DNA from: Aggregatimonas sangjinii
GTDB taxonomy: Bacteria > Bacteroidota > Bacteroidia > Flavobacteriales > Flavobacteriaceae
Length of the DNA: 64,000 nt
NCBI RefSeq assembly: GCF_005943945.1
Contig: NZ_CP040710.1
Span: 4,075,501 to 4,139,500 of the forward strand
Direction: 5' to 3'
Shown here: positions 10,524 through 18,037 of the stretch, piece after piece
How the letters are laid out: each line of letters begins with the position of its first letter
Numbering within the stretch: position 1 is the first letter of the stretch
Notes under the pieces: model-generated
The model's database searches: none
Told to the model about the DNA's origin: nothing
What the model saw: only the letters and a program-made list of their open reading frames with translations
Program-made: the position numbers and the translations under genes

Positions 10524-11735
10524 ATGATAGAGAAGAAGTCCATCGAATATGAAAAGTCAGTGCTTATCGGTATCATCAACCAAGAGCAAAGCGAAGCCAA
10601 AGTGAACGAATACCTAGACGAGTTGGAGTTCCTTACCTATACGGCCGGTGGCGAAGTCTACAAACGTTTTGTGCAACGTATGAACGTGCCCAATCCGAAG
10701 ACCCTTATCGGTAGTGGCAAGATGTTGGAAGTCGCGGCTTACGTAGAAGAGCATGAGATCGGTTCTGTAATTTTCGACGACGAGCTTACTCCTGCCCAAC
10801 AACGAAATATTGAAAAACAGCTGCGTTGCAAGATCATCGACCGGACCAGTCTGATCCTCGATATTTTTGCACAGCGCGCCCAAACCAGCTATTCCCGTAC
10901 CCAGGTTGAACTGGCGCAGTACGAGTACCTACTCCCTCGCCTTACCGGATTATGGACACACTTGGAACGGCAAAAAGGGGGTATCGGCATGCGCGGCCCG
11001 GGGGAAACCGAAATCGAGACCGATAGACGTATCGTTCGGGATCGTATCAGCCTCCTTAAAAAGAAACTCCTAAAGATAGATCGTCAAATGGAAACCCAAC
11101 GCGGAAACCGCGGCGCGATGGTGCGTGTGGCTTTGGTAGGCTACACCAACGTAGGCAAATCCACCTTGATGAACGTAGTGAGCAAAAGTGACGTCTTTGC
11201 CGAAAACAAACTCTTCGCCACTTTGGATACGACGGTGCGAAAGGTCGTTATCGGCAACCTACCCTTTCTGTTGAGCGATACCGTAGGATTTATCAGAAAA
11301 CTGCCCACACAACTGGTCGAAAGTTTTAAGAGTACGTTGGATGAGGTTAGGGAAGCAGATCTCTTGCTGCATGTGGTCGATATTTCACACCCACAGTTCG
11401 AGGAGCATATCGATTCGGTCAACAAAATATTGGCCGAAATCAAAAGTGCCGATAAGAAGACCATCATGGTCTTTAATAAAATAGATCAGTACGAGAATGA
11501 GACCATAGACGAAGACGACCTCATAACGGAAAGGACTAGTGCACACTTTACTCTTGAGGAATGGAAGAATACCTGGATGCAGCGTGTCGGCAACAATGCT
11601 CTGTTCATTTCTGCGTTGAACAAAGAGAACTTAGATACCTTTCGCAAACGGGTTTATGACGAGGTGCGCGACATACATGTAACCCGTTTCCCCTACAATA
11701 ACTTTCTCTATCCCGAGCATTTAGACGAGTTTTAG
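10524..11735 (+). CDS. hflX: Ribosome-associated GTPase HflX
   Basis: HflX is a GTPase that binds and splits stalled 70S ribosomes under stress. The 403-residue protein has the HflX N-terminal domain (about 20-105), a linker with GGIGMRGPGETEIETDRR (about 152-169) and the G domain with G1 GYTNVGKST (206-214), G3 DTVGFIRKLP and G4 FNKID. Length and order of domains are as expected. It has a TAnnTTTG promoter box just upstream and diverges from the EEP gene. Confidence 0.95.
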   Translation: MIEKKSIEYEKSVLIGIINQEQSEAKVNEYLDELEFLTYTAGGEVYKRFVQRMNVPNPKTLIGSGKMLEVAAYVEEHEIGSVIFDDELTPAQQRNIEKQLRCKIIDRTSLILDIFAQRAQTSYSRTQVELAQYEYLLPRLTGLWTHLERQKGGIGMRGPGETEIETDRRIVRDRISLLKKKLLKIDRQMETQRGNRGAMVRVALVGYTNVGKSTLMNVVSKSDVFAENKLFATLDTTVRKVVIGNLPFLLSDTVGFIRKLPTQLVESFKSTLDEVREADLLLHVVDISHPQFEEHIDSVNKILAEIKSADKKTIMVFNKIDQYENETIDEDDLITERTSAHFTLEEWKNTWMQRVGNNALFISALNKENLDTFRKRVYDEVRDIHVTRFPYNNFLYPEHLDEF

Positions 11736-11919: not shown

Positions 11920-12222
11920 TTACTTAAGGTGTTTTGGAAAATCCATCCTACCACCAAGGATTCTAACAATGAATATTCCTTTGCTTTCGATATAATAAAA
12001 AACTACATGTGATTTGTATCTGTACCGCAATAGCATTTTATCTTTGACGGCGACATATCTCCTACCCAACTCCGGATTATTTGCTAATTCCCATAAAATA
12101 TCTTTAAGGCCGTTCGCATATTTCAAAGATTGACTCTCTCCAAATTCCTTAATCGTGTATTTGGCAATGGACTTGATATCACCTCTTGCCTTGGCACTTA
12201 TTACATAACTACTTTTCAGCAT
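11920..12222 (-). CDS. parE: ParE/RelE-family toxin
   Basis: A toxin of about 100 residues from the ParE branch of the RelE/ParE superfamily; relatives poison gyrase. Typical features are the N-terminal SAKARGDIKSIAKYT, the central NPELGRR and the C-terminal strand pattern RYRYKSHVVFYYIESKGIFIVRILGGRMD. A start at 12231 is also in frame, but the ATG at 12222 fits family N-termini better. Either start overlaps the antitoxin gene, which indicates coupled translation. Confidence 0.88.
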   Translation of the reverse strand: MLKSSYVISAKARGDIKSIAKYTIKEFGESQSLKYANGLKDILWELANNPELGRRYVAVKDKMLLRYRYKSHVVFYYIESKGIFIVRILGGRMDFPKHLK

Positions 12223-12460
12223 TATGCTCATTTATGGCCTCCTCCCAAATACTATCTACCGTGGCGTCGGATGGGCCACTTTCGATTCCCTCGATGAGCG
12301 CTTCGTTCAAATCTACAATACGCTTTCTTCGTTCTTGGTCTTTCCGAATTATATCTCTGACATATTCGCTGTCGTTCGTATAAAAACCCTGCTCGATTAA
12401 GCTTTTAACATAAGCTTCCTGTTGTTCTGTAAACGTGATTGACTTTCGGATTACTCCCAT
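12209..12460 (-). CDS. parD: ParD-type (ribbon-helix-helix) antitoxin
   Basis: An 83-residue antitoxin upstream of and overlapping parE. The N-terminal RKSITFTEQQEAYVKSLIEQG with YVRDIIRKDQ is a ribbon-helix-helix DNA-binding segment. The acidic C-terminal half (ALIEGIESGPSDATVDSIWEEA) should bind and neutralise ParE. Such pairs repress their own promoter. The locus sits in a low-coding stretch beside the small-transcript module at 12.69 kb. Confidence 0.9.
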   Translation of the reverse strand: MGVIRKSITFTEQQEAYVKSLIEQGFYTNDSEYVRDIIRKDQERRKRIVDLNEALIEGIESGPSDATVDSIWEEAINEHNAEK

Positions 12461-12693: not shown

Positions 12694-12789
12694 TTCGTCG
12701 AAGAAAACAATCACTTCGTATTTTTCACAACACAACTGCTATAGTTCACAACAATAATTTAGCCGGATCGAATTGTGGTTCTATATTTA
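12694..12789 (+). promoter_or_regulatory. Promoter module A: TTCGTCGAA box, TTCACAACA direct repeats, -7 box
   Basis: TTCGTCGAA lies at 12694-12702, TTCACAACA at 12724-12732 and again at 12745-12753 (period 21, spacer 12), and the -7 box TATATTTA at 12782-12789. The spacings are 30, 21 and 28 bases. They are identical in modules B (16529-16624) and C (16826-16921). A normal -33 TTG is absent at the right distance, so the repeats look like an activator site. Confidence 0.7.
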
Positions 12790-12822
12790 CAGTGTAATTA
12801 AGTAAGCAACTGTATCCCAAAC

Positions 12823-12873
12823 ATGAACTTAACCGAATTGCAAAAACTAATAAAAAAACATACACCAGATTAA
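12823..12873 (+). CDS. Micropeptide ORF A, MNLTELQKLIKKHTPD (16 residues)
   Basis: This tiny ORF starts 41 bases after the beginning of the -7 box, exactly as its homologue B does. The first nine residues MNLTELQKL are identical in both and the tails are basic. It resembles no protein I recognise. It could be a micropeptide, a regulatory leader or a chance ORF in a structural RNA. Confidence 0.4.
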   Translation: MNLTELQKLIKKHTPD

Positions 12874-12919
12874 CCTACTTTCAGTACAAACCACATTAGA
12901 TCAAACCTACTTTAACAGC

Positions 12920-12947
12920 GCCCGACTCCCCAAGTCGGGCTTTTTTT
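12920..12947 (+). terminator. Intrinsic terminator of transcript A
   Basis: An 8-bp perfect stem GCCCGACT/AGTCGGGC with a 5-base loop, followed by seven T. Confidence 0.9.
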
Positions 12948-13032
12948 GTGTTTTGCTTTTGTATTACACTGTCTGTGAATTGTCCCAAACTTAGACAAGC
13001 CGAAAAAGATATAAAGCGGTGACTAGGAATAC

Positions 13033-13662
13033 CTATTCCTCCAGCGAATCTCCTGTTTTTCGCTTTGCTTCCCTTTCCAAGCGCTCTGCTTCCCTTTTCA
13101 GCCGTTCGGCTTCCCGTTGTAGTCTTTCCGCCTCCTGTATTTTTTGTTCGGCCTCTCTTTTCAACTGCTCTTGATCTCGTTGAAGCGCCTCTTGATCTCG
13201 TTGCGCATCGGATTTGCCTGAAGTGTAACTTTTTATATTTTGGGTAATCGTTTTGAACTTATTGAATAACGCTTGGGAAGTGAGCTCCTTATTAACAAAT
13301 ATTCGAAGACTACCATCATCCAATTTTACCTCATAGCCGGTATCGCCATTGTAATCCACCTTCCAAATAACCTTACTCCCGGAGGTGGTCATGTTGTTTT
13401 GGCCCAATTCCTCCAAAAGATAGATTCTGACCTTTGCTGTTTTGTTGTCATTGTACTTCGCCCGCACCTTATAGGTGTTTTCGGAATCGCTGGTCGAGAA
13501 ATAGCTTCTTTCATTCTTTGAAACCGATGACACCTCCCCGTTAACGGAAATTGAGGAAATCGAGTTCGTTTTTTCCTCGGTCGTGGTGGTCTCCGATTCT
13601 TGGGAGTGGGTACGCAACATGCCGAGCAATAGGCTTAATAATATATATAATACAATTCTCAT
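13033..13662 (-). CDS. Secreted coiled-coil protein of unknown function (paralogue of the upstream gene)
   Basis: A 209-residue protein with an N-terminal signal peptide (to about residue 20), a Ser/Thr-rich stretch, a beta-rich middle and a charged heptad-like C-terminus (about 155-205, repeats of REAERL/KREAERL) that should form a coiled coil. The middle (VIWKVDYNGDTGYEVKLDD, then FVNKEL) aligns in pattern with VWTRTASKGKPMYTIELKD in the 13675 gene, so the two look like diverged tandem paralogues. It is the last gene of the kinase/regulator operon, 12 bases after its paralogue. No known domain recognised. Confidence 0.7.
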   Translation of the reverse strand: MRIVLYILLSLLLGMLRTHSQESETTTTEEKTNSISSISVNGEVSSVSKNERSYFSTSDSENTYKVRAKYNDNKTAKVRIYLLEELGQNNMTTSGSKVIWKVDYNGDTGYEVKLDDGSLRIFVNKELTSQALFNKFKTITQNIKSYTSGKSDAQRDQEALQRDQEQLKREAEQKIQEAERLQREAERLKREAERLEREAKRKTGDSLEE

Positions 13663-13674
13663 GATTTCTGTTTT

Positions 13675-14130
13675 TTAATTGTTTATGACGGTTATGGACT
13701 CTTGTCCAAGGGTATTCAACATATGATATGCCTCTGCATCCATTCGTTTTCTAAATACTTCGATTTTGAGTTTGTTGTCTTTCAATTCAATGGTGTACAT
13801 CGGCTTTCCTTTGGATGCCGTTCTCGTCCAAACCATTTTACCGTATCCCGAAGAAGCATCGGTACCCTCTAAAATTCTGGAAACCACTTGTTGTAGCTGT
13901 TCGCTTTTGGATGCTTCGAACAGCAGGTTGATTTTATAAACTTTATTCGTGAGTTTTACGGTATACGCATCTTCGAACTCATATTCGACCAGCGAGCCCT
14001 TGGTAGCCGCCTCGAAGCTATACACTTTTACGTTTTCAGGTCCTATCTTAAAGGTATTGTCCTTGGTTTGTGCGCTCATATCCGCGATGGTTACAAGCAC
14101 AAAAAATAACGTGATTTTAAAATAATTCAT
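13675..14130 (-). CDS. Small secreted protein of unknown function in the two-component operon
   Basis: The 151-residue protein begins with a signal peptide (NYFKITLFFVLVTIADMSAQ). The rest is beta-rich, with an SSGYGKMVW segment and a C-terminal TLGQESITV. An in-frame start exists at 14157, but the ATG at 14130 puts the signal peptide at the N-terminus. It follows the response-regulator gene by 78 bases and precedes its coiled-coil paralogue by 12. Co-transcription suggests it is an output or periplasmic accessory of this two-component system. Function unknown. Confidence 0.7.
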   Translation of the reverse strand: MNYFKITLFFVLVTIADMSAQTKDNTFKIGPENVKVYSFEAATKGSLVEYEFEDAYTVKLTNKVYKINLLFEASKSEQLQQVVSRILEGTDASSGYGKMVWTRTASKGKPMYTIELKDNKLKIEVFRKRMDAEAYHMLNTLGQESITVINN

Positions 14131-14208
14131 GATTTGATTTTTACTACCGGGCCCCAAATAGTAAGACCCCGTATGGATTGATGAAATAAACTCCTTTTGT
14201 GAACTTCC

Positions 14209-14904
14209 CTATGATGCTTTAGGGGGATCGATCTTAAATGTTAGCCCTACCCCGCGCACACTTTCTATGGCAATCGATGCATCTTGCTTAAAGTATTTCC
14301 GAAGTCGGCTTATAAATACGTCCATACTTCTTCCGGAAAAGAAGTCGTCGTTGCCCCAAACGTCTTTGAGGAGGTCTTCGCGCTTTATCATGCTGTTTTT
14401 ATATTGATGTAAATACTGAATCAGGACCGTTTCTTTTTCGGTCAACCGCTGCTCTTGGCCCCTAAATTGCAGTTTGTGATTGATCGAATCGAATGCGTAG
14501 GCACCGATCTTCACCAACGCTTCCTTTTTAGGTTGCACCCTTCGAGTGCGTTTGAGAATATTCCGTAATCGTAGGACCAGTATATCGGCTTCAAAGGGTT
14601 TTACGATATAGTCATCGGCCCCTAATTTTAAACCCGTTACGCGGTCCGCTTTCAATTTCTTTGCTGTTAAAAAAACGAACGGTATTTCCGGATTTAAGGC
14701 AACCGTTTTCTCAGCTAGGGTAAATCCGTCCATTTTGGGCATCATCACATCGAACACACAGATATCGAAATCATTTTTGGTAAAACATTCGAACGCCTCC
14801 TTACCATCTTTGGCCCAAGTAACCTGATGGTCATGAATTTCTAAATACTGTTTTAGGATACTCCCAAAATCAAAATCATCTTCCGCCAATAATACGTGTG
14901 CCAT
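14209..14904 (-). CDS. OmpR/PhoB-family response regulator
   Basis: A 231-residue regulator with a receiver domain (about 1-120; acidic pair EDD at 8-10, phospho-acceptor D52 in VFDVMMPKMDG, switch region VFLTAKK, KPFE lysine) and a C-terminal winged helix (about 135-228, with GRSMDVFISRLRKYF as recognition helix). It lies 4 bases after its kinase gene. It somewhat resembles RprY-type regulators of Bacteroidetes, though that name is not certain. The GTTAACGG repeat upstream of the kinase gene is a candidate binding site. Confidence 0.92.
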   Translation of the reverse strand: MAHVLLAEDDFDFGSILKQYLEIHDHQVTWAKDGKEAFECFTKNDFDICVFDVMMPKMDGFTLAEKTVALNPEIPFVFLTAKKLKADRVTGLKLGADDYIVKPFEADILVLRLRNILKRTRRVQPKKEALVKIGAYAFDSINHKLQFRGQEQRLTEKETVLIQYLHQYKNSMIKREDLLKDVWGNDDFFSGRSMDVFISRLRKYFKQDASIAIESVRGVGLTFKIDPPKAS

Positions 14905-14908
14905 AATC

Positions 14909-16306
14909 TCAGTTTACAGGTATGGTGATGGTAAATATGGTGCCCTTGTTCATTTCACTTTTACAGGAAATAGTTCCCTCATGGGCATCTATCACCTGTT
15001 TCGTGTAGTACAATCCCAACCCCAGCCCTTTTACGTTATGTATATTTCCGGCAGCGATACGAAAGAATTTATCGAAAATGAACTTTTGGTCCTTTGCCGA
15101 AATGCCTGTGCCATTATCCGAAATTATAATCTCGTAATGATTGTTCTTAAGTTGTGTTGTAAGGGTTATTGCTATGGATTCTTTTCCGTATTTCACCGCA
15201 TTTTCAAGAATATTGAACAATGCAGTGGTGAACAAAAATGAATCGATGCGCAGCAGAATTTCTCTAGGTTCGATATGTTGATGAATGGTCAGGTCTTGGC
15301 TCTGTACCGAGAGCGAAAAATCATCGATCAGATTTTTAAAGTAGGTATCATCTATTACCTGTTCCTTGTTCAAGACCAATTCTTCAGAACCAAGGCTATT
15401 TGTCATTACTTGGTCTATAAGCTTTTGCAATCTGGAATTTTGACGCTCGACTATTCCTACGGTCTTTCCAAATGCTTCCGGGTTCTCTAAAATTTCCTTT
15501 TTTCTTAAACTTTTAGAAGCAATGCTTAATGTAGCCAAAGGGGTTTTGAGTTCGTGGGTGATGTTATCTATAAAATCCGTTTTTACCTCGGCCACTTTTT
15601 TCTGTTTGATGAGATTTTTAATCGAATAATAGAAAAGACCCACCACAAAGAGTAACAATATCCCAGAGGCCGTTAATAAGCCCGCCATGCTGCCCAAAAC
15701 AATTCGATTCCATTCCGAAATATTCATTCGATTTTCGGTGATGACCATAAATTCGAAATCCCGGGATTCATCATACGGCACACCCTTCTTTTCTTCATAA
15801 AAGGTAGACTGCCAACTAGTAGTTTTCGTCTGATAGCCTAGTTCATCGTCAAAAGTACCGCCGACCAGCCGAATTTTTTCACCATCGTTCAAGGGGACGA
15901 CCGTATCGTTTGCAACGCTATCCAAAATAACCAAACCGATAAGGTTCTTTTTAAAACCGACTTCGTACCCAAGGGCGGTCTTTTGTACCTCCTGTTGATA
16001 GCGCACATTATACCTACTACCTATAGAATCGGATGTGCGCGTAAGCTGCGCCACAAAATTTTCCTTCGACACGTCCTCGTATTTGTAAGCGACGAGTAAC
16101 TCCACCAGCCGCTCGGCCCAGAGATTTTCCAAATCCAAAAGGTCGGGTGTTGCATCATCGATTTTATTTAATGCTTTCTTGGTTTCGTTCAAGAACGATT
16201 TTTTCTTTAACTCATAGGTATTGTAAATTAGATAGGCCTGTATACCCATAAGCGCGAAAAGCGTTACAATCGCAGTAATAATCAGAATGTTTATGCGTTG
16301 CTTCAT
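14909..16306 (-). CDS. Membrane sensor histidine kinase
   Basis: The 465-residue kinase has a transmembrane helix at about 6-28, a periplasmic sensor region at about 30-200, a second helix at about 204-228, a HisKA domain with H-box THELKTPLATL (H251) and an HATPase domain with N-box ILENAVKYG, G1 ISDNGTGIS and G2 KGLGLGLYYTKQVI. The sensor region is not recognisable. It is the first gene of a four-gene operon with its regulator and two secreted paralogues. A -7 box and an 11-bp-period repeat lie upstream. It is similar in layout to RprX-type kinases. Confidence 0.92.
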   Translation of the reverse strand: MKQRINILIITAIVTLFALMGIQAYLIYNTYELKKKSFLNETKKALNKIDDATPDLLDLENLWAERLVELLVAYKYEDVSKENFVAQLTRTSDSIGSRYNVRYQQEVQKTALGYEVGFKKNLIGLVILDSVANDTVVPLNDGEKIRLVGGTFDDELGYQTKTTSWQSTFYEEKKGVPYDESRDFEFMVITENRMNISEWNRIVLGSMAGLLTASGILLLFVVGLFYYSIKNLIKQKKVAEVKTDFIDNITHELKTPLATLSIASKSLRKKEILENPEAFGKTVGIVERQNSRLQKLIDQVMTNSLGSEELVLNKEQVIDDTYFKNLIDDFSLSVQSQDLTIHQHIEPREILLRIDSFLFTTALFNILENAVKYGKESIAITLTTQLKNNHYEIIISDNGTGISAKDQKFIFDKFFRIAAGNIHNVKGLGLGLYYTKQVIDAHEGTISCKSEMNKGTIFTITIPVN

Positions 16307-16334
16307 GGCAGGGTCGGTTTGTTTCCCAATGCAT

Positions 16335-16342
16335 CAAAAATA
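16335..16342 (-). promoter_or_regulatory. -7 box TATTTTTG upstream of the kinase gene
   Basis: On the minus strand TATTTTTG matches TAnnTTTG 28 bases before the kinase ATG. Confidence 0.45.
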
Positions 16343-16376
16343 GCCTAAAGACCATAATCGGCATAACAATCGGTTG

Positions 16377-16395
16377 CCGTTAACCCACCGTTAAC
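16377..16395 (-). promoter_or_regulatory. Direct repeat GTTAACGG, period 11 (candidate response-regulator box)
   Basis: On the minus strand GTTAACGG occurs twice with a 3-base spacer, 34 bases upstream of the kinase -7 box. An 11-bp direct repeat is the usual layout for OmpR/PhoB-type dimers. Its place upstream of the kinase/regulator operon suggests autoregulation. Confidence 0.5.
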
Positions 16396-16528
16396 GTTAA
16401 TTTCAAAACAATATCCTTTTGGCGTGGGGTTATTGCAGGATGGTTAATAAGATGCTTAACATACCGAAAGCCTTCACTCGCTAAAAATTCCGAACCCTGA
16501 TATCCAATTTGATGGTTGATGCGTGCAT

Positions 16529-16624
16529 TTCGTCGAAGAAAACGAACCGCTTATGTGATACACAACATGCTGGGGCAGGTTCACAACAATATTTTAGACA
16601 GACCGAACCCTCGTTCTATATTTA
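16529..16624 (+). promoter_or_regulatory. Promoter module B: same layout as module A
   Basis: TTCGTCGAA is at 16529-16537, TACACAACA at 16559-16567, TTCACAACA at 16580-16588 and TATATTTA at 16617-16624. Spacings of 30, 21 and 28 bases equal those of modules A and C. Confidence 0.7.
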
Positions 16625-16657
16625 CAGTGTAATTAAGTTAGAAACAGCGTCCCAAAC

Positions 16658-16705
16658 ATGAACTTAACCGAATTGCAAAAACTTAAAAAGCAAACACCAA
16701 ATTAA
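16658..16705 (+). CDS. Micropeptide ORF B, MNLTELQKLKKQTPN (15 residues)
   Basis: Homologue of micropeptide A: identical first nine residues, and the same distance of 41 bases from the -7 box. Relative to A, one codon (Ile) is missing in frame and several third-position and conservative changes appear in the tail. An in-frame length change gives weak support for coding. Confidence 0.4.
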   Translation: MNLTELQKLKKQTPN

Positions 16706-16752
16706 CCTACTTTAGTACCAAACAACATTCGATCAAACCTACTTTAAGAATG

Positions 16753-16777
16753 CCCGACTCCCCAGTTGGGTTTTTTT
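16753..16777 (+). terminator. Intrinsic terminator of transcript B
   Basis: The stem CCCGACT/AGTTGGG (one G-T pair) with a short C-rich loop is followed by seven T. Confidence 0.85.
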
Positions 16778-16825
16778 ATTCCCTATAGTGTTGGTCAAGC
16801 ACAGAAAACCAATATAAGAGTGTAT

Positions 16826-16921
16826 TTCGTCGGACAAAAGTGCATTTTAACGTATTTCACAACAGCTGGGGCCATTTTCACAACAAAAATTTACACTTCT
16901 GTACCAAGGCGGCTACTTTAG
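16826..16921 (+). promoter_or_regulatory. Promoter module C: same layout as A and B
   Basis: TTCGTCGGA is at 16826-16834, TTCACAACA at 16856-16864 and 16877-16885, and the -7 box TACTTTAG at 16914-16921. Spacings are again 30, 21 and 28 bases although the sequence between the boxes has diverged. This argues for selection on the boxes. Confidence 0.7.
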
Positions 16922-16927
16922 TCTCGG

Positions 16928-17055
16928 ATTTAAGATTTAGTGTTTGATCCCAAATCAGCATTCAACCAAAAAGTTCGATTTACATTGACTGTGTAACCAA
17001 ATTCAACAAAATCTACTTAACAAAAAATCCCCGACCAGAGTCGGGGATTTTGTTT
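16928..17055 (+). ncRNA. Small transcript C (predicted, about 128 nt)
   Basis: Bounded by the module C promoter and the terminator at 17026-17055. It keeps only short matches to A and B (CCCAAA near the front, CTACTT near the end). It lacks an ATG ORF at the conserved position. Short GTG- or TTG-started frames exist but are unrelated to MNLTELQKL. Confidence 0.45.
17026..17055 (+). terminator. Intrinsic terminator of transcript C
   Basis: A 10-bp perfect stem AATCCCCGAC/GTCGGGGATT with a 4-base loop and a T-rich tail. The convergent DUF3078 gene ends at 17105, so it could also serve that gene. Confidence 0.85.
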
Positions 17056-17104: not shown

Positions 17105-18037
17105 CTAGAACGAGTAGTTCAATCCTATCAAATAATAACTTTGCGTTTTCACATCTATATTATCGAAGGTGGGTGTAGGTGTAATGGCCGGATCTTGGCC
17201 AAGCGCGTTGGCAAGTTCTTCCTGTTTGTTGTTCCGCAGACCGAATTCAAACCCGATTCCGATTCCGTTCCAAAGAGTGTATCCGAACGAGTTGATCCAC
17301 GTCCAGTTTGAAAAATCGCTGCTCTTATAACTCTGAAAAGTAGAAAAGTTGGTTTTAAAGCTGACCGCTCCCAACTGGCGGGTGTAATCGACAACTATTT
17401 TCGCACCTGCCGAAGATTCGAAAACACTATCCTCATCGGCGAAAACGAAATTGTAGTTCAACGGATGGATGACAACCACCATATTTTCAATTGGCGTCCA
17501 GGTCGCACCTACCCCAATGTCTAAATATCCGGGGTTATTGAAATTATTGATAACCGATGTACGATATTCACCCAAAGCAGAAATCGCGAACTTCTTACTG
17601 AGTTTATAGCCGTATAAGGAGGTGATGTTGAAAACATCGGTTGTTCCGTTGAAACTATCGTCATCGGTATCAATGTCTTTATTGTCGATTTTCACCCACT
17701 GTAAATTTACGTTGAGCGAGTTGCGCCAAAAGAACTTATCCTTATCCAAATTGGCAAATCCGTTCAAGGTAATACCTACATTACCGGCCGAGTTATTCGG
17801 CGTACCTTGATTGTACCAGTTGTTCGCTCCAGAGAAATTTGCCCCGATAGTACCGAACATCCCTTTTTTCCAGCCTGGGAATTTGTCTATTTGTCCTTGA
17901 AGTGCATCTACTCGCCCTTGAATAGCCGCGATTGAATCTTTTTTCGCTGCTTTCTCTGCTTTCAATTCGTCTAAAGTCTGTGCTTGTGTCGCTGATATAG
18001 CCAACATTGCACAGACTGCAATTGCTAATTTTTTCAT
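17105..18037 (-). CDS. DUF3078 outer-membrane-type protein
   Basis: A 310-residue protein with a signal peptide (to about residue 20, ATQAQ), a short Lys-rich coiled segment (DELKAEKAAKKDSIAAIQ) and then a long series of amphipathic strands ending in an aromatic C-terminus (YYLIGLNYSF). This is typical of an outer-membrane beta-barrel, and the sequence fits DUF3078. Function unknown. A perfect TAnnTTTG box at 18071-18078 suggests its own promoter although it lies at the end of the SUF gene group. Confidence 0.85.
   Translation of the reverse strand: MKKLAIAVCAMLAISATQAQTLDELKAEKAAKKDSIAAIQGRVDALQGQIDKFPGWKKGMFGTIGANFSGANNWYNQGTPNNSAGNVGITLNGFANLDKDKFFWRNSLNVNLQWVKIDNKDIDTDDDSFNGTTDVFNITSLYGYKLSKKFAISALGEYRTSVINNFNNPGYLDIGVGATWTPIENMVVVIHPLNYNFVFADEDSVFESSAGAKIVVDYTRQLGAVSFKTNFSTFQSYKSSDFSNWTWINSFGYTLWNGIGIGFEFGLRNNKQEELANALGQDPAITPTPTFDNIDVKTQSYYLIGLNYSF

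Follow-up and report, generated by a model that had tools for sequence, protein, structure and literature searches.

Three copies of one promoter architecture in the marine flavobacterium Aggregatimonas sangjinii raise two questions: which regulator reads them, and what do they transcribe? The copies, here called modules A, B and C, lie in a window of 64,000 nt (contig NZ_CP040710.1, positions 4,075,501 to 4,139,500; coordinates count from the first base of the window unless another sequence is named) and bracket a minus-strand two-component operon. We find that each module is followed by a short terminated unit, a point absent from an earlier reading of this DNA made from its letters (the sequence-only reading), and each module seems to be the promoter of a short RNA gene that is probably non-coding. 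We consider it likely that the modules are activator-dependent sigma-A-type promoters of sibling small RNA (sRNA) genes, most likely driven by a LytTR response regulator. They are probably switched on by a distant sensor–regulator pair and not by the kinase genes between them.

RESULTS

Three modules and the units behind them

The modules start where the sequence-only reading had placed them, at 12694, 16529 and 16826, all on the plus strand, and the spacing that it had described is the same in A, B and C. The upstream box TTCGTCG[AG]A is followed 30 nt from its first base by a first repeat and, 21 nt later, by a second one; 28 nt separate the second repeat from a -7 box. The second repeat is TTCACAACA throughout, beginning at 12745, 16580 and 16877, and the first repeat differs from it in module B (TACACAACA). 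The sigma-A -7 consensus TAnnTTTG is placed at -12 to -5 (PMC9723704). Over the 96-nt promoter, identity is 0.70 for A and B, 0.53 for A and C and 0.55 for B and C, so the intervening sequence has diverged around conserved boxes, as had been noted. Allowing one mismatch, the window contains three copies of the repeat pair, whereas 100 dinucleotide shuffles average 0.00; 300 windows generated with an order-2 Markov model show no instance of the pattern. Matches to the exact full module number three in the whole 4.72 Mb genome, all at this locus (control 0).

Downstream of each -7 box, the plus strand carries a unit of 126–154 nt that contains no long open reading frame (ORF) and ends in an intrinsic terminator, a G+C-rich hairpin with a T run. 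Starts of these predicted RNAs were placed about 12 nt past the first base of the -7 box. The motif [CT]CTACTT stands just before the terminator in all three units, and the terminator of sRNA C sits between this unit and the converging DUF3078 gene. In the predicted folds, RNAs A and B consist of a weak 5' hairpin and the terminator, with the CCUACUU copies single-stranded. Across the 109 RNAs that carry it, the motif has a higher mean unpaired value than the remaining 7-mers upstream (0.67 versus 0.52; higher in 81). A conserved element within the stretch shared by A and B looks like GAACTTAACCGAA.

Conservation was profiled for the C member. Expressed as the mean majority-base fraction in 10 genomes of the genus, the upstream box, repeats and -7 box reach 0.89–0.99, with the repeats at 0.96–0.99 the best conserved element. 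The N12 and N28 spacers are at 0.63–0.70. The RNA body has 0.88, which drops to 0.40 directly past the terminator.

A known RNA family was considered and rejected. Within the window stretch, Rfam gave only five matches at E ≤ 5, each under its gathering score, and at the gathering threshold no match fell over any module RNA in six plus five related loci.

The family in related genomes

The modules lie between hflX and a DUF3078 protein gene. This interval holds 33 units in 10 of 10 genus genomes, two to four per genome: the three of the window and 30 in nine others, after three of 36 rows were dropped (two minus-strand chance matches in the window and one match in L034 outside the interval). 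A terminator was found behind 33 of 33, for 32 by script and for the last by eye and then by a second script as L116. The motif [CT]CTACTT precedes the hairpin in 32. Scanned genome-wide with up to two mismatches, the repeat pair occurs 144 times in the 10 genomes versus 13 times in the control.

Beyond the genus, we scanned the neighbourhood of DUF3078 genes in the best 80 loci of a longer list. On the convergent strand, 52 of these 80 have one or more new repeat-pair sites with at most two mismatches; six are contigs of genus genomes already counted, and the other 22 have no site at this stringency. Looser matching gave a match in six of the 22, three of which we judged plausible degenerate copies (L083, L133, L152). 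Site-bearing genera include Maribacter, Zobellia, Pseudozobellia, Arenibacter, Kriegella, Pricia, Ulvibacterium and Eudoraea, and the sites often stand two to four in tandem, about 300 bp apart. After eight of 136 sites on the other strand were dropped, 128 unique sites remained. A terminator follows 124 of them, with [CT]CTACTT close to it in 107 of the 124, compared with 0.46% of random windows. The strict pattern matches 23 of 299 family genomes (control 0). The boxes are conserved in related genomes, as the sequence-only reading had proposed to check, and the module RNAs appear to form a family of sister sRNAs in many marine flavobacteria.

The exactness of the spacing, claimed from the three modules, does not extend to the relatives. 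The upstream box, sought as TTYRTCS 16–40 nt before the repeat, was recognised in 103 of the 128 unique sites and always lay at 29–31 nt (30 nt in 63, 29 in 22, 31 in 18). A -7 box was recognised in 122 sites, and the final step to it measures 28 nt in 96, 29 nt in 25 and 31 nt in one. Since these counts vary, 30 and 28 are modal values and not invariants; the 21-nt step between repeats was imposed by the search pattern. The distance from the site to the core promoter is nevertheless near-fixed, with 28–29 nt in 121 of 122 sites.

A distant LytTR regulator as candidate activator

LytTR regulators bind two imperfect direct repeats of 8–13 bp, about 12 bp apart (PMC4064291). All three modules have this layout as 9-N12-9, which makes a LytTR regulator the candidate. 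The sequence-only reading knew of no described system with such a layout. This does not hold, given the published LytTR arrangement and the repeats at -72 and -51 that drive an sRNA promoter in Clostridioides difficile (PMC10602386). Its proposal of a dedicated activator with a regulon beyond the window is supported: the repeat pair followed by N28 and a -7 box, with up to three mismatches, occurs 16 times in the A. sangjinii genome versus 0 in the reversed control.

Two of these 16 sites adjoin one LytTR gene. Of 16 LytTR matches in the genome, that at 2138781 is the only one with a site closer than 1 kb (at 170 bp); the next nearest lies 24.9 kb from a site. Both sites are found between the LytTR gene and a TPR/HisKA_2 sensor kinase gene, one before a second short conserved unit and the other before the kinase. 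Repeat pairs flank the gene or its ortholog in nine of nine genus genomes where it was located, with both sites in six and, at this stringency, one in three. The LytTR locus of G008 is not among the nine; its fetched stretch (L079) held only the site before the second-family sRNA.

The same association is seen across the family. In a sample of 120 genomes, which we infer to lie within the 299, 22 carry the regulator, and in 20 of these its gene is flanked by repeat pairs. The pairs number 36 in total (0 in shuffles), 34 of them with a TA..TT -7 box at 27–29 nt. The regulator is present in 23 of 23 strict-module genomes (nine in the sample, 13 others and G002). None of the 98 sample genomes scored as lacking it has a strict module (Fisher p 4.8e-8, a value that ignores ancestry). 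These comparisons support the view that sites, RNAs and regulator go together.

Other promoters with the site

The short unit beside the LytTR gene belongs to a second, highly conserved family with the core CATTTTCATATAGTGTTCTCGTAAAAGAG followed by a terminator. Two more of its units, each with a site of its own, lie at 3570770 and 3571159 of the A. sangjinii genome. No Rfam match above threshold was obtained in L069 or L070; next to the LytTR gene, every match falls short of its gathering score.

The repeat geometry also precedes an extracytoplasmic function (ECF) sigma factor gene in 10 of 10 genus genomes. Through this site the regulator could feed into a sigma cascade, as PorXY does with SigP in Porphyromonas gingivalis (PMC4800418). 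In A. sangjinii and in three other genomes fetched, the site is also found at a type IX sorting-domain gene with a PorP/SprF family gene behind it. A nearby large DUF11-repeat gene has it in A. sangjinii and in two of the three; the third stretch does not reach the gene. At this locus the second repeat is CCCACAACA or ACCACAACA, and GCCACAACA or GACACAACA in the relatives fetched.

Table 1. Features of the module locus and of other loci that carry the site
Feature	Position	Strand	Remarks
Module A upstream box	12694..12702	+	TTCGTCGAA, TTYRTCS class
Module A direct repeat	12724..12753	+	TTCACAACA-N12-TTCACAACA; proposed LytTR-regulator site
Module A -7 box	12782..12789	+	TATATTTA; fits TAnnTTTG
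Predicted sRNA A	12794..12947	+	start placed from -7 box; CCTACTT at 12874-12880 and 12906-12912
Module B upstream box	16529..16537	+	TTCGTCGAA
Module B direct repeat	16559..16588	+	TACACAACA-N12-TTCACAACA
Module B -7 box	16617..16624	+	TATATTTA
Predicted sRNA B	16629..16777	+	intrinsic terminator; CCTACTT at 16706-16712 and 16738-16744
Module C upstream box	16826..16834	+	TTCGTCGGA
Module C direct repeat	16856..16885	+	TTCACAACA-N12-TTCACAACA
Module C -7 box	16914..16921	+	TACTTTAG
Predicted sRNA C	16926..17051	+	intrinsic terminator; TCTACTT at 17012-17018; no ATG ORF
LytTR response regulator gene	2138751-2139503 of A. sangjinii genome		beside TPR/HisKA_2 sensor kinase (Pfam); 1.95 Mb from modules
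Second-family units	L069:4050-4800 (A. sangjinii, ~2.138 Mb); L071-L080; L070:3770-4320		core CATTTTCATATAGTGTTCTCGTAAAAGAG and terminator
ECF sigma factor gene	L047:1384-1965 (A. sangjinii); orthologs L227-L235		conserved site TTCACATCA-N12-TTKACAACA-N28
Type IX sorting-domain, PorP/SprF family and large DUF11-repeat adhesin-like genes	L051 (A. sangjinii 4277200-4287200)		variant sites, same geometry
hflX	10524..11735	+	one conserved border of sRNA interval
DUF3078 protein gene	17105..18037	-	other conserved border; convergent with sRNA C
Two secreted-type proteins, OmpR-type regulator, HisKA kinase	13033..16306	-	outside core system

Neighbouring features

Two further elements were observed near the modules. 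The Rfam family Flavo-1 (RF01705) matches L034:9288-9367 and L039:11849-11930 on the plus strand, between the end of hflX and the first module and on the strand opposite to the modules of these loci. Just upstream of module A, at 11920-12460, Pfam identifies a toxin–antitoxin pair of the ParE/ParD type, for which no match was found in the fetched loci of nine relatives at E 1e-5.

DISCUSSION

Proposed mechanism

We propose that the LytTR regulator, whose gene lies at 2.139 Mb, receives its phosphate from the TPR/HisKA_2 kinase. Two molecules of the regulator would occupy the repeats, which stand at about -70 and -49 and are separated by two helical turns, and would bring RNA polymerase to the -7 box. 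Simultaneous production of several sister sRNAs would multiply gene dosage. The [CT]CUACUU stretch beside the terminator is the likely seed and may pair with RNA or bind a protein. The family between hflX and DUF3078 would have been duplicated repeatedly in tandem in Flavobacteriaceae of the Maribacter/Zobellia type. The same regulator probably drives its own kinase, the second sRNA family, the ECF sigma factor and the operon of the type IX secretion/gliding type. The TTYRTCS box, special to the hflX–DUF3078 family, may take a second input, either a second regulator or a further contact. The boxes, terminators, conserved RNAs, sites next to the LytTR gene and co-occurrence come directly from the sequence comparisons; start sites, transcription, LytTR binding, seed function and the part played by the upstream box belong to the proposal.

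Several observations weigh against this explanation. All transcripts discussed here are predictions from sequence. The motif of RNA C is partly paired in the minimum-energy fold, and three Cellulophaga loci (L118, L128, L143) have the repeats with no terminator or -7 box recognised. Pairing with mRNA through the 9-mer AAAGTAGGT, complementary to the motif, is unsupported because this 9-mer is not enriched before ATG (336 versus 436 in the reversed control, 10 genomes); the count of 336 takes in complements of the sRNA genes, and the search is blind to few or shorter pairings. By eye, the repeat TTCACAACA fits the LytTR base consensus, which has a GTT core, poorly and agrees with it in layout only; the consensus in Bacteroidota may differ. 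Co-occurrence of regulator and modules also tracks clade membership, and absence of the regulator in the 98 genomes is defined by an E cut-off of 1e-60; 78 of the 98 enter as a count and not as individually listed genomes. Among the 22 regulator-positive sample genomes, 13 have no strict module, perhaps due to the strictness of the pattern. LytTR alone leaves the TTYRTCS box unexplained. Finally, G034, outside the genus, also has the OmpR-type regulator of the local operon at a distance of about 2 kb from a module, and the tie between this regulator and the locus may be more than chance.

Alternative readings

The unexplained box leads to the alternative that survives best, although we regard it as unlikely: another regulator bound to TTYRTCS would exert primary control, and the LytTR repeats would be a shared co-activating input. 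The narrow range of 29–31 nt at which the box is found agrees with this, as does its absence, judged by eye, from the corresponding place in the sites next to the LytTR gene and in the majority of the other A. sangjinii sites. The box is not recognised, however, in 25 of the 128 unique sites, many of which keep repeats, terminator and motif, and it is the repeats that are best conserved in module C.

The local operon is a poorer candidate. Here, its OmpR-type regulator would bind the modules and the sRNAs would be outputs of the local two-component system. Two-component systems commonly regulate their neighbours, and kinase and regulator are present between the modules in six of 10 genus genomes, to which the linkage in G034 can be added. 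Yet the operon, earlier taken as what the modules serve, is missing from the interval in G002, G004 and G009, and G007 has a different kinase and regulator there (27–34% identity). These four genomes retain two to four intact modules with no copy of the operon's regulator in the interval, and no close ortholog of it was found elsewhere in them (best 42–43%; the ortholog search covered six of the 10 genus genomes, and G004 is 87% complete). Besides the window's own, 22 genomes have strict modules, G002 and G007 among them, and only G034 carries the local regulator. Because the modules persist without the operon or a close ortholog, we rejected the operon as the regulator, on its absence or difference in four of 10 genus genomes and its absence in 21 of the 22. 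The same sites also flank the LytTR gene elsewhere, and we consider control by the local system quite improbable.

Very little speaks for units that encode micro-peptides rather than functional RNAs. RNAs A and B share a similar frame of 15–16 codons, MNLTELQKL..., at 12823-12872 and 16658-16705. This frame is lost in the alignment of relatives while the features of the RNA stay, C has no ATG ORF, and the longest ATG ORF varies from 0 to 40 aa across 32 scored genus RNAs; micro-peptide genes were rejected on these grounds. Least credible of all is that the modules are decoys or relics which titrate the regulator and are not productive promoters, a reading for which the purely predicted nature of the transcripts leaves room and against which stand the conserved -7 box, RNA body and terminator and the sharp drop in conservation past the terminator.

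LytTR-driven sRNA promoters remain our preferred explanation. Beyond it, we tentatively suggest a wider reading, somewhat less likely than not, in which a LytTR/HisKA_2 two-component system of marine Flavobacteriaceae works as a switch mainly by way of two expanded families of sibling sRNAs. It would tie these sRNAs to an ECF sigma factor and type IX secretion/gliding adhesins, and at the hflX–DUF3078 sRNAs the TTYRTCS box would supply the second, separate input of an AND gate. In these marine bacteria, the sequence yields a binding site, a promoter geometry, a candidate regulator and several dozen predicted sRNA genes. The proposed system would link sRNAs to type IX secretion and gliding genes. 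Several of the bacteria are named type strains, and regulator, signal and RNA targets are directly testable.

Comparison with known systems

In the literature searched, which lies mostly outside subscription journals, we found no identified activator of a Bacteroidota sRNA family, nothing on this system under LytTR with sRNA, gliding or Bacteroidetes, and no combination of LytTR-type sites with sibling sRNA arrays. Its parts have parallels. AgrA is a direct-repeat regulator that acts through a regulatory RNA, RNAIII, and LisR is taken to be an OmpR-type regulator.

The Rfp sRNAs of Flavobacterium psychrophilum are experimentally mapped sRNAs of the same family Flavobacteriaceae with the same -7 consensus; the main text of the report (PMC9723704) names neither LytTR nor direct repeats, and our comparison is by description and not by RNA homology. 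The multicopy sRNAs LhrC1-5 of Listeria resemble the present family in that a two-component system, LisRK, switches on sibling sRNAs (PMC4132741, PMC5880928). They belong to another phylum, and are likened here by description and not by RNA sequence. FopS and GibS with RbpB in Bacteroides (PMC11697453) are multicopy Bacteroidota sRNAs with a single-stranded 5' part that contains a shared seed, followed by a Rho-independent terminator. In contrast to FopS, whose seed is at the 5' end, the motif found here stands beside the terminator and there is a defined candidate activator site; FopS promoters are canonical, and a further regulator is called unknown in that paper.

The closest mechanisms in print appear to be that of RgaR and SpoZ in C. 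difficile and, next to it, that of VirR with VR-RNA, VirT and VirU in Clostridium perfringens. In the VirR/VirS system, a direct-repeat regulator heads a cascade that acts partly through several regulatory RNAs, and spacing and helical phase of the sites are critical (PMC2838878). Its RNAs and targets are different, whereas the present RNAs come in many sister copies, their promoters are of the Bacteroidota -7 type and the kinase is a TPR/HisKA_2 protein. For the VirR-like RgaR, the accessible part of the report (PMC10602386) describes a single sRNA, of other sequence and in another phylum, with no sibling array or extra upstream box. The likeness lies in the geometry: direct repeats with critical bases at -72 and -51, 21 nt apart, activate the SpoZ promoter, and the repeats of the modules start at about -70 and -49 of the predicted transcription start.

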